From positions 62,001 to 126,000 of the forward strand of contig NZ_SJEE01000002.1 of the NCBI RefSeq assembly GCF_006937785.1: DNA of 64,000 nucleotides. Reading direction: 5' to 3'. The stretch is from Pseudanabaena sp. UWO311. Lineage in GTDB: Bacteria; Cyanobacteriota; Cyanobacteriia; Pseudanabaenales; Pseudanabaenaceae. The notes under the pieces are model-generated. The model was not told where the DNA came from. It ran no database searches and saw nothing but the letters and a program-made list of their open reading frames with translations. Below, one piece after another: positions 22,849 to 59,140 of the stretch. Made by a program: the position numbers and the translations under genes. How positions within the stretch are numbered: the first letter of the stretch is position 1; each line of letters opens with the position of its first letter.

Positions 22849-22886
22849 TACAGGTAGGGGCAATTCATGAATTGCCCCTACCTGTA
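22849..22886. repeat. Conserved palindrome (TAGGGGCAATTC type), copy 1
   Basis: A 38-bp perfect palindrome has a core that reads TAGGGGCAATTC followed directly by its complement. It fills most of the merR-copA gap and supplies the TAG stop codon of merR (22878-22880). Two further copies with the same core lie at 32269-32300 and 57711-57748. Confidence 0.9.
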
Positions 22887-32268: not shown

Positions 32269-32300
32269 AAGTAGGGGCAATTCATGAATTGCCCCTACTT
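32269..32300. repeat. Conserved palindrome (TAGGGGCAATTC type), copy 2
   Basis: A 32-bp perfect palindrome has the same core as 22849-22886 and lies in the nrtA-nrtB gap. In RNA it makes a strong 16-bp stem that could protect the upstream nrtA message or reduce transcription into nrtB, giving more binding protein than permease. That effect is inference. Confidence 0.9.
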
Positions 32301-56085: not shown

Positions 56086-57189
56086 ATGCCTTCTAAAAGT
56101 TCGCTTAACTACCAACAATTGCAACCAATTTATTTACAGCGTGAGTTGCTGCAATATCAGCGTACTTTGTTTGCTAATGTCGGAATTTTATTCGGTCTGA
56201 CTGCATTTGGAACATTGGGCTATCGCTTCATCGAAGGATGGAGTTGGTTTGATGCTCTCTATATGACGATTATTACCCTTGCCACGATTGGCTATGGTGA
56301 GACTAATCCCCTTGATTTTGAGGGGCGTATTTTTACGCTTACCTTAATCGTGATGGGCGTTTTAAGCATTAGTTATATTGCTGCTCAGTTTACAGCCGCG
56401 ATCGCAAATGGTCATATCTACAATATTTTTCAAGCGAGGCGACAACGAAAGGTCATGGATTCATTAGACAAACATTACATAGTTTGTGGATTTGGTCGAA
56501 CGGGGCGACAGGTTACAGCAGAATTTGCGGCGGAGGGAAGTATTACATTTGTAGTGATTGATAGTGATCCCATTGCAATTGAGCAAGCTGAGCTAGAGGG
56601 TCATCCAGCTTTGCAAGGAGATGCGGCTCTTGATAACACCTTACTTCTTGCGGGAATTGAACGGGCTGTCTGTATTGTGGCAGCTTTGCCATCGGATGCT
56701 GAAAATCTCTATACGGTATTATCGGCAAAAACCTTAAATCCTGAGATTAGGGCGATCGCTAGAGCAAGTACAGAGGAGTCTATGCAAAAGTTACGGCGGG
56801 GTGGAGCAGATGAAGTAATTTCGCCATATATTACTGGTGGCAAGCGTATGGCTGCTGTGGCGTTGCGTCCGCAGGTGATGGATTTTGTGGATGGCATTAT
56901 TGCTGGAGCTAATCGATCATTTTATATTGAGGAATATCGCATTGATGATTCTAGCTATGTTGGAGTCACTTTAAAAAAGGCAAGTTTGCGATCGCAGACT
57001 GGGGCTTTAGTATTAGCAATTCGTCGGGCTGATGGCGATGTAATTGCGGGACCTGATGGTAATACGGAAATTTTGCAAGGTGATGTATTGATCTCCATGG
57101 GAACACCTGAGCAGTTAAGGGCACTGAATCAAATCCTGAGTCCGCTTTCCAAAAAAACAAATGTGTTACGGTTACCACGCATGAAATAG
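56086..57189 (+). CDS. Two-TM potassium channel with RCK (TrkA) domain
   Basis: The 367-residue protein has two membrane helices (about 27-47 and 85-107) around a pore loop with the K+ filter TIGYGE in LATIGYGETNPL. A cytoplasmic RCK domain follows, with NAD-binding YIVCGFGRTGRQVTAEF, then a TrkA-C domain at about 285-355. It forms a tetrameric, ligand-gated K+ channel of the MthK/Kch type. The DALR-domain gene starts 52 bp downstream behind a hairpin. Confidence 0.93.
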   Translation: MPSKSSLNYQQLQPIYLQRELLQYQRTLFANVGILFGLTAFGTLGYRFIEGWSWFDALYMTIITLATIGYGETNPLDFEGRIFTLTLIVMGVLSISYIAAQFTAAIANGHIYNIFQARRQRKVMDSLDKHYIVCGFGRTGRQVTAEFAAEGSITFVVIDSDPIAIEQAELEGHPALQGDAALDNTLLLAGIERAVCIVAALPSDAENLYTVLSAKTLNPEIRAIARASTEESMQKLRRGGADEVISPYITGGKRMAAVALRPQVMDFVDGIIAGANRSFYIEEYRIDDSSYVGVTLKKASLRSQTGALVLAIRRADGDVIAGPDGNTEILQGDVLISMGTPEQLRALNQILSPLSKKTNVLRLPRMK

Positions 57190-57195
57190 GTATAA

Positions 57196-57230
57196 GTTAG
57201 GTTTGCGCCCCGCAGGGGCGCAAACCTAAC
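57196..57230. repeat. Variable-arm hairpin just before the ArgRS-like gene
   Basis: Perfect 16-bp arms (57196-57211, 57215-57230) surround the loop GCA. The stem TTTGCGCCCC begins 6 bases past the channel gene stop and ends 11 bases before the next ATG, so it can end the first gene and also covers the space where the next gene's ribosome site should be. Confidence 0.85.
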
Positions 57231-57241
57231 ATTTGTTGATC

Positions 57242-58036
57242 ATGAAGTTTATTTCTCCATCTCGAACTATCCAAATTGCGATCGCCTCAGCAATTAATTC
57301 AGAATTTGAGCTTTTGCTAGATTCTAGAGAAATAGCGCTAGAGATTTGCTATCCAAAATATGATGCTCATTACACATCAGCGATCGCGTTGTCGCTCGCC
57401 AATCGCTTACAGCGAAATCCTGCACAGATTGCTGATGCGATCGCGCAAACTTGTTCACAAAATCCAGAAATATCCGCTCAATCGCAAATCGGAGCATTTG
57501 GGAAAGGATGGTTAAATATTGTTTTTAGAGAGCAATATATCGCTGAAATTATATTGTTTCTGGAAAATTTGCGAATGGAAGGAATTACAATTTGTAATGG
57601 ATTCTGGCAAAAAAGTGAAATCGCTCTAATTCCTGTAGGGAATTCAACTGAGCAATATGTTTATGCTCGATGCTGTGCGCTTATGCGATTGGCAAAACAA
57701 TCAAAATTCTTAAATGTAGGGGCAATTCATGAATTGCTCCTACATTTAGAAACTGATTTAGAAATCGATTTAGAACCTGTGGAAATTAGTTTGTTAATGC
57801 GAAATTTGGCGATCGCAGATTATTTAGCAGATGAGAATAGCTCGCCTTTAAATAGACAGAAGAGACAGAAATTATCACGATCGCTAGCTGAAACTTTTTT
57901 GCATTTTTACGATCACTGTCGAATTTTTGGAGTACCTCATGAAATTGCGATCAAGCGATTATTACTAATTAGCATTACGCAAAAAATGCTCCTCGCGATC
58001 GCGCCGCCCGAAATTAATTACGCAATGTACTTGTAA
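57242..58036 (+). CDS. ArgRS-like protein: N-terminal and DALR domains without catalytic core
   Basis: I chose the ATG at 57242; a TTG at 57233 is possible. The 264-aa product (numbering from the TTG) has YPKYDAHYTSAIALSLANRL (40-59), PAQIADAI and FGKGWLNIVF (89-98). This is the pattern of the N-terminal additional domain of arginyl-tRNA synthetase. From YVYARCCALMRLAK (142-155) to the end it resembles the DALR anticodon-binding domain. The HIGH and KMSKS catalytic domain between them is absent. A conserved palindrome is translated in frame as LNVGAIHELLLHLE (160-173). Function is unknown; tRNA binding is an inference. Confidence 0.7.
   Translation: MKFISPSRTIQIAIASAINSEFELLLDSREIALEICYPKYDAHYTSAIALSLANRLQRNPAQIADAIAQTCSQNPEISAQSQIGAFGKGWLNIVFREQYIAEIILFLENLRMEGITICNGFWQKSEIALIPVGNSTEQYVYARCCALMRLAKQSKFLNVGAIHELLLHLETDLEIDLEPVEISLLMRNLAIADYLADENSSPLNRQKRQKLSRSLAETFLHFYDHCRIFGVPHEIAIKRLLLISITQKMLLAIAPPEINYAMYL
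57711..57748. repeat. Conserved palindrome (TAGGGGCAATTC type), copy 3, inside a coding region
   Basis: The 38-bp palindrome has one G-T mismatch (at 57721 and 57738) and the same core as the copies at 22849 and 32269. It lies inside the ArgRS-like gene in a frame without stops and codes NVGAIHELLLHL. Confidence 0.9.
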
Positions 58037-58037
58037 A

Positions 58038-58078
58038 ACCCGTAAGGTTGCGCCCCTGCGGGGCACAACCTTACGGGT
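58038..58078. terminator. Bidirectional hairpin terminator
   Basis: Arms 58038-58056 and 58060-58078 pair over 19 positions with one C-A mismatch and the loop TGC. It fills the 45-bp gap between the convergent ArgRS-like and queA genes. It has no T run, so ending would depend on the strong stem. Confidence 0.75.
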
Positions 58079-58081
58079 CTC

Positions 58082-59140
58082 TTAGCGCAGCATCAACATG
58101 GCATCCCCAAAGGAATAGAAACGATATTCTTTGGCGATTGCTTCTTGATATACCGACATTAAAAATTCGCGCCCATTTTCACCCAAAAACGATGACATCA
58201 TCATTAGCAAAGTTGACTTGGGTAAATGAAAATTAGTCACCATTCCATCTAAAACTCGCCACTCATATCCAGGATAAATCATCAAATTCGTTTTACCCCT
58301 AAAAGCCTGAAAATTTGAATTTTCCAGCGATCGCGCCACCGTACTACCAACGCCGATCACACGTCCGCCGGTTGCCTTTGTTTCTTTGATTTTAGCGATC
58401 GTCTCCTCAGGCACTTCACACCACTCGTTATGCATCACATGCTGGGTGATGTCCTCCGTCTCTACAGGGCGAAATGTACCGATTCCCACATGTAGAGTCA
58501 CAAATGCTTTACCAACGCCCATATCAGTGAGCTTTGCAAATAGCTCCTCGGTAAAATGTAAACCTGCTGTAGGTGCTGCGATCGCTCCTGCAATCTCAGC
58601 GTAAATCGTCTGATAGCGATCAGGATCAGCATGGGAATCGGTGACGTAGGGTGGCAAGGGGACTGTGCCTAGTTGATCGATAATTTTGTCAAGGTCAGCA
58701 CCAGTAGGAATATGAAATTGCAATTCTCTTGCTCTGGTGGTTGTCTCAATCCCTTCGACCGTCGCTTTGACATTATCCGCAAAGATGATCGTGCTTCCAA
58801 TCGGCAATCGCTTACCAGGCTTAACCAATGCTAACCAGCGATCGTGTCCAACTGGCTCCATCAGCAAGATCTCGACAGGCACACCCGATTGCTTATGCCC
58901 ATACATCCTCGCGGGAATGACTTTGGTGTTATTAAAAACAAGCAAATCTCCCGACTGCAAAAAATCTGGCAAGTCGTAAAAGTGCTGATGACGTAAATTG
59001 CGATCGCTTTCAATTACCAACAGTCGCGATGTATCCCTAGGTGTAACTGGATCTTGAGCTATGCGATCGCTTGGCAATTCATAGTCATAGGCGCTTAAAG
59101 CATAATCAGGCTCAAGTTCAGTCGCAGGCGATGAAGTCAT
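58082..59140 (-). CDS. queA: S-adenosylmethionine:tRNA ribosyltransferase-isomerase
   Basis: The 352-aa QueA carries YDYELPSDRIAQDPV at the start, LLVFNNTKVIPARMYG, AAPTAGLHFTEELFAKL and FHLPKSTLLMMMSSFLG. It moves the ribosyl part of SAM to preQ1 in the anticodon wobble position of tRNA to make epoxyqueuosine. It is a single gene converging with the ArgRS-like gene. No other queuosine gene is in the window. Confidence 0.95.
   Translation of the reverse strand: MTSSPATELEPDYALSAYDYELPSDRIAQDPVTPRDTSRLLVIESDRNLRHQHFYDLPDFLQSGDLLVFNNTKVIPARMYGHKQSGVPVEILLMEPVGHDRWLALVKPGKRLPIGSTIIFADNVKATVEGIETTTRARELQFHIPTGADLDKIIDQLGTVPLPPYVTDSHADPDRYQTIYAEIAGAIAAPTAGLHFTEELFAKLTDMGVGKAFVTLHVGIGTFRPVETEDITQHVMHNEWCEVPEETIAKIKETKATGGRVIGVGSTVARSLENSNFQAFRGKTNLMIYPGYEWRVLDGMVTNFHLPKSTLLMMMSSFLGENGREFLMSVYQEAIAKEYRFYSFGDAMLMLR

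Follow-up and report, generated by a model that had tools for sequence, protein, structure and literature searches.

A candidate tRNA-binding protein of cyanobacteria that carries the two ends of arginyl-tRNA synthetase without its catalytic domain

The open reading frame at 57242-58036 of the window, the whole stretch of 64,000 nucleotides from Pseudanabaena sp. UWO311 that was analyzed, raises the question of where a protein comes from that carries both tRNA-binding parts of arginyl-tRNA synthetase (ArgRS) and no catalytic domain, and what such a protein could do in a cell that also has a complete argS.

Anatomy of the reading frame

The frame lies on the plus strand, begins with the ATG at 57242 and encodes 264 amino acids, with its stop codon ending at 58036. 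An in-frame TTG is present 9 bases upstream of this ATG, and the start MKxxSPS... is common to all seven orthologues aligned. The features of the gene are given below; type I and type II ArgRS are names coined in this analysis and are described further on.

57242..58036, plus strand: stand-alone ArgRS-derived protein, N-domain and DALR domain without the catalytic domain (open reading frame, Pfam, orthologues)
57269..57523, plus strand: Arg_tRNA_synt_N domain (PF03485), residues 10-94 (Pfam E 4.4e-9, above the curated cut-off)
57506..57517, plus strand: GWLN, site of the ArgRS G-[FYW]-[IL]-N motif (alignments)
57524..57652, plus strand: short linker of 43 residues at the place of the ArgRS HIGH/KMSKS catalytic domain (Pfam boundaries, alignment)
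57653..57991, plus strand: DALR anticodon-binding domain (DALR_1, PF05746), residues 138-250 (Pfam E 4.2e-8; hhalign to type I ArgRS)
57716..57743, no strand assigned: one copy of a dispersed palindromic repeat, located where the gene encodes a variable DALR loop (repeat search, alignment)
58031..58033, plus strand: codon of the C-terminal Leu, which takes the exact place of the ArgRS C-terminal Met (alignment)

The sequence-only reading had described an ArgRS N-domain joined to DALR with the HIGH/KMSKS Rossmann core missing. The profile check that it proposed bears this out, since both Arg_tRNA_synt_N (37.3 bits against a Pfam cut-off of 21.5) and DALR_1 (33.7 against 22.3) were detected above the curated cut-offs and the Pfam search found no catalytic-domain family in the 264-aa frame. 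Because this anatomy has no Rossmann core, aminoacylation is predicted to be lost, as had been proposed. The linker between the two domains was poorly conserved in the alignment of seven sequences. The NCBIfam argS model TIGR00456 matched the protein weakly (45 bits against a cut-off of 261.65), and the family profile matched ArgRS chains in the PDB, against which phmmer with the single sequence gave chance matches only. Structure prediction from the seven sequences yielded no confident model (mean pLDDT 46). One complete argS of 586 aa (565 bits) is encoded elsewhere in the same genome, on contig C53. A third DALR_1 match, at the cut-off, falls in a 730 aa frame on contig C47, which we take to be the beta subunit of GlyRS.

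Two features concern putative contacts with tRNA. The G, L and N of GWLN are invariant in the seven aligned Pseudanabaena-type sequences, and the motif Asn, which presumably reads A20 of tRNA-Arg, is replaced in most other cyanobacterial stand-alones. At the opposite end of the protein, Leu is the C-terminal residue, exactly at the ArgRS terminus, in 61 of 64 stand-alones, and Met is the C-terminal residue in nearly all ArgRS listed. The C-terminus sits at the anticodon in ArgRS complexes, and the fixed end of the stand-alones hints that the anticodon site is in use, with its detail changed. In bacteria, the main arginine determinants are A20 in the D-loop together with C35 and position 36 of the anticodon (PMC9976931). 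The loss of the motif Asn in most families and the change of the terminal Met to Leu may mean that binding has been altered.

The palindrome GTAGGGGCAATTCATGAATTGCYCCTAC occurs at three sites of the window (57716-57743, 22854-22881 and 32271-32298), and 43 matches per strand were counted genome-wide when no more than 2 core mismatches were allowed. The first of these copies lies in frame within the stand-alone gene; at this site, the seven-sequence alignment reads similar insertions in L004 and L005 and none in L006-L009. G+C-rich palindromic sequences were also seen on both sides of the gene, at 57201-57226 in the gap to the K+ channel gene and at 58047-58072 in the gap to queA.

Conservation, selection and gene neighborhood

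Six relatives from the genome collection are 47-84% identical to the 264-aa protein, and the seven sequences align over their full length, sharing one start and one end. With this alignment as query, a match was obtained in 25 of 25 listed Pseudanabaena genomes, the own genome included, and the orthologue frame was intact in every Pseudanabaena genome searched. An alignment of 50 rows matched 358 of 388 genomes at 1e-3, a count that takes in complete ArgRS as well as stand-alones; the listed matches with E up to about 1e-42 were nearly all open reading frames of 246-432 aa, from about 150 genomes. Altogether, the genomes with stand-alone relatives of 220-430 aa number well above a hundred and belong to many cyanobacterial families. 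The survey of cyanobacteria that had been suggested therefore shows the stand-alones to be widespread, most cyanobacteria having one, and every genome tested for argS that has a stand-alone also has a complete argS.

The dN/dS of the stand-alone gene is 0.24-0.48 among Pseudanabaena orthologues (Nei-Gojobori), while by the same method the upstream K+ channel gene gives 0.02-0.07 and the downstream queA 0.06-0.12. The protein is under selection yet fast-evolving, with a dN/dS several times that of its neighbors.

In the window, these neighbors are the K+ channel gene at 56086-57189 on the plus strand and queA at 58082-59140 on the minus strand, an arrangement common to several Pseudanabaena. 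Outside Pseudanabaena, a different gene adjoins the stand-alone. In 34 of 39 loci, four Pseudanabaena loci being excluded, a divergently oriented Crp-family gene is located no more than about 525 bp away, and the NCBIfam PtrA model matches this neighbor below its cut-off. In Nostoc PCC 7120, all3951 is annotated as 'Arginyl tRNA synthetase anticodon binding' (PMC2821919) and alr3952 is devH, which encodes a Crp-family regulator (PMC7699953). Since the two numbers are adjacent and the strand tags all and alr agree with the divergent arrangement, the Crp-family neighbor appears to be devH, as judged from Nostoc locus tags rather than from sequence, and by locus tag, annotation and divergent devH, all3951 is very likely the orthologue of the stand-alone. 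Diverged copies without a clear profile match were found by their position beside the DevH-like gene in L196, L203, L204, L206, L207, L209 and L211, and no stand-alone was seen beside it in, for example, L197, L198, L201, L202 and L208. The small genomes of family f2 (f1, f2 and so on are family labels within the genome collection) gave argS-level scores only and may hold a very diverged copy.

The gene all3951 is also among the 49 genes reported as common to N2 fixers (PMC2821919). A link of the stand-alone to nitrogen fixation is unsupported here, as the gene is kept in Pseudanabaena in which no nifH over the cut-off was found, namely the own genome and several others.

Relation to two types of ArgRS

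Each of the 126 genomes drawn gave a match in the argS family search, and in 123 of them the match exceeded the cut-off. With the argS model, the majority of cyanobacterial ArgRS reach about 480-650 bits and are here called type II, and those of families f5, f14, f29, f30 and f33 score about 340-390 bits and are called type I; most ArgRS of the sister classes have a DALR domain resembling that of type I. On the DALR of type I ArgRS, the stand-alone profile scored 47-114 bits overall, with 58-114 bits for the cyanobacterial enzymes and 48-87 bits for the type I-like ones of the sister classes; on that of type II it scored about 15-36 bits. Likewise, hhalign of the stand-alone DALR gave 1.5e-33 with type I, compared with 2.1e-9 for type II, and the tail CRI...LAQAR...APxx is common to stand-alones and type I ArgRS. 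By these comparisons, the stand-alone DALR is closest to type I ArgRS. The term ArgRS paralogue used in the sequence-only reading calls for refinement: the closest profile relatives are the older type I, now missing from most cyanobacteria, and not the type II enzyme of the host itself.

The trees, which hold sequences from this phylum only, are less decisive. In a DALR tree from which five stand-alones with long branches and part of the type II rows had been taken out, the stand-alones form one clade with a support of 99/98 for this reduced set, and the type II group is split off by a 100/99 branch with a length of 1.13; a quick tree with the diverged sequences added was weaker. Forcing stand-alones and type II into one group costs 11.5 log units and is not rejected (AU p 0.219). 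A type I origin is thus favored by similarity and not proved by the tree, and given the long branch of type II, part of the higher likeness to type I could be due to slower evolution.

The distribution of the two forms bears on this origin. The 14 cyanobacterial genomes that have a type I ArgRS all lack the stand-alone, and their sole matches were ArgRS itself. In the type I genomes examined, argS lies beside neither a DevH-like nor a HAD gene, and in those of f5 and f29 the Crp gene is located elsewhere; a reduction of the synthetase in place is therefore not supported. In the scenario that we propose, a type I ArgRS was probably the enzyme that charged tRNA-Arg in ancestral cyanobacteria, and it is retained today in some lineages and in sister classes. 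Most cyanobacteria would then have acquired type II ArgRS, displacing type I, and the old type I gene would have lost its catalytic domain while keeping the D-loop-binding N-domain and the anticodon-binding DALR. We infer the displacement in both its direction and its timing.

In the sister classes, G433 (f51) has a type I ArgRS and no stand-alone. A type II-like ArgRS is accompanied by a separate fragment of 278 aa with both domains (L166:6671-7507) in G443 of the same family, which is listed with 7% contamination, and by a separate fragment of 241 aa (L187:5823-6548), in which the N-domain alone is over the Pfam cut-off, in G424 (f49). A FapA gene follows the ArgRS-N fragment in both. In G439, whose genome is 87% complete, a type II-like ArgRS is present and no fragment was found. 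These cases suggest a repeated pattern without proving it. It is possible, although we consider it doubtful, that the tRNA-binding ends repeatedly survive the displacement of an ArgRS as a protein under selection of its own, a first time in the cyanobacterial crown and perhaps a further time in G424 and G443; the old synthetase would then have had a second, non-charging duty beyond the incoming enzyme.

Possible roles of the stand-alone protein

The sequence-only reading knew of no described function for such a protein, and our literature search found nothing relevant on NrtL or on stand-alone ArgRS proteins; a functional precedent does exist in human DALRD3. This protein has no synthetase motif; it binds the UCU and CCU forms of tRNA-Arg and guides METTL2 in m3C methylation (PMC7237682). 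The cyanobacterial stand-alone likewise has a DALR domain without a synthetase core. Unlike the stand-alone with its ArgRS N-domain, DALRD3 has no recognizable domain in its N-terminal part, and its homologues are reported only in vertebrates (PMC7237682), so DALRD3 serves as a working model and not as a claim of family membership. Compared with bacterial ArgRS (TIGR00456; type I of cyanobacteria and sister classes), the stand-alone has a homologous N-domain and DALR and ends at the same place, but it lacks the catalytic domain and has a terminal Leu for Met. The N-part also matches NrtL (NCBIfam NF045898), an ArgS-related anticodon-binding protein, at 1.2e-7, although its 31.6 bits lie far from the family cut-off of 340, which places the stand-alone outside NrtL by that criterion; no match over that cut-off was found in the own genome.

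From this anatomy we infer tRNA binding, a preference for tRNA-Arg and the existence of a partner. The remnant would grip tRNA-Arg, or a tRNA-like RNA, at the elbow and the anticodon, and would act as an adaptor or chaperone, either protecting the tRNA or handing it to an enzyme that modifies or processes it. The whole explanation, a remnant of a displaced type I ArgRS acting as tRNA-Arg adaptor or chaperone, is put forward tentatively, its chances being close to even but somewhat short of it.

Several other readings of the same data have to be weighed. The gene could be a functionless, decaying argS pseudogene, for which its dN/dS above that of the neighbors, the short REP-like insertion and apparent losses in several lineages could be cited; but the frame is intact in all Pseudanabaena genomes and in many families, dN/dS stays below 0.5 and the C-terminus is fixed. 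The breadth of intact copies largely refutes decay, which we regard as very improbable, and the same observations speak against the decayed argS specific to this strain that the sequence-only reading had considered. The stand-alone is probably an old, conserved candidate tRNA-binding factor rather than a broken gene. A decoy or inhibitor that competes with ArgRS for tRNA-Arg under stress would fit the loss of catalysis and the retention of both tRNA-binding parts. Nothing specific supports it, however, and the binding residues have decayed in most lineages, which argues against tight competition; this role seems improbable, and that of adaptor or chaperone is favored over it.

It is somewhat less improbable that the remnant, binding no RNA itself, is a partner of the resident type II ArgRS or of some other translation factor, whose activity it tunes. 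A complete argS is always present too in the genomes tested, and the DALR core is conserved whereas surface and linker change rapidly, as a protein-binding subunit might require. Against this reading, conservation extends to the DALR core and to the precise C-terminus, the parts of ArgRS that face the anticodon. The domains could instead bind mRNA or a regulatory RNA, the gene being co-regulated with the divergent Crp-family gene. This reading, unlikely but the least so of the four, draws on the 34 of 39 loci with a divergent DevH-like gene, on the likely Nostoc pair all3951 and alr3952/devH and on the loss of the A20-motif Asn in most families. The Crp gene is, however, absent at 1e-30 from all Pseudanabaena genomes listed, which keep the stand-alone, and the link to DevH, a real alternative for other cyanobacteria, cannot be general because Pseudanabaena has no DevH-like neighbor. 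Some genomes, conversely, have the Crp gene without a detectable stand-alone, and synteny alone does not show a shared function.

If the adaptor or chaperone role is true, the stand-alone would be a widespread uncharacterized tRNA-binding candidate of cyanobacteria, tractable strains like Nostoc PCC 7120 among them, and a bacterial counterpart of DALRD3. The replacement of a synthetase with retention of its tRNA-binding parts would then point to a hidden non-charging duty of ArgRS.

Other ArgRS-like proteins were observed during the searches. A second kind, of about 340-353 aa, consists of the second half of the catalytic region and DALR (L168:6325-7353 in G252, L169:6661-7722 in G205, and G309:C275), and the genomes concerned also have a complete argS. 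At G025:C1:2637759-2638613, an argS match (positions 298-569) lies inside an open frame of 2070 aa, where an insertion, for example an intein, is possible. Inserts also seem to be present in argS frames of 670-760 aa with an interrupted match, at L134 (G008), G028:C582, G073:C66 and G309:C236.
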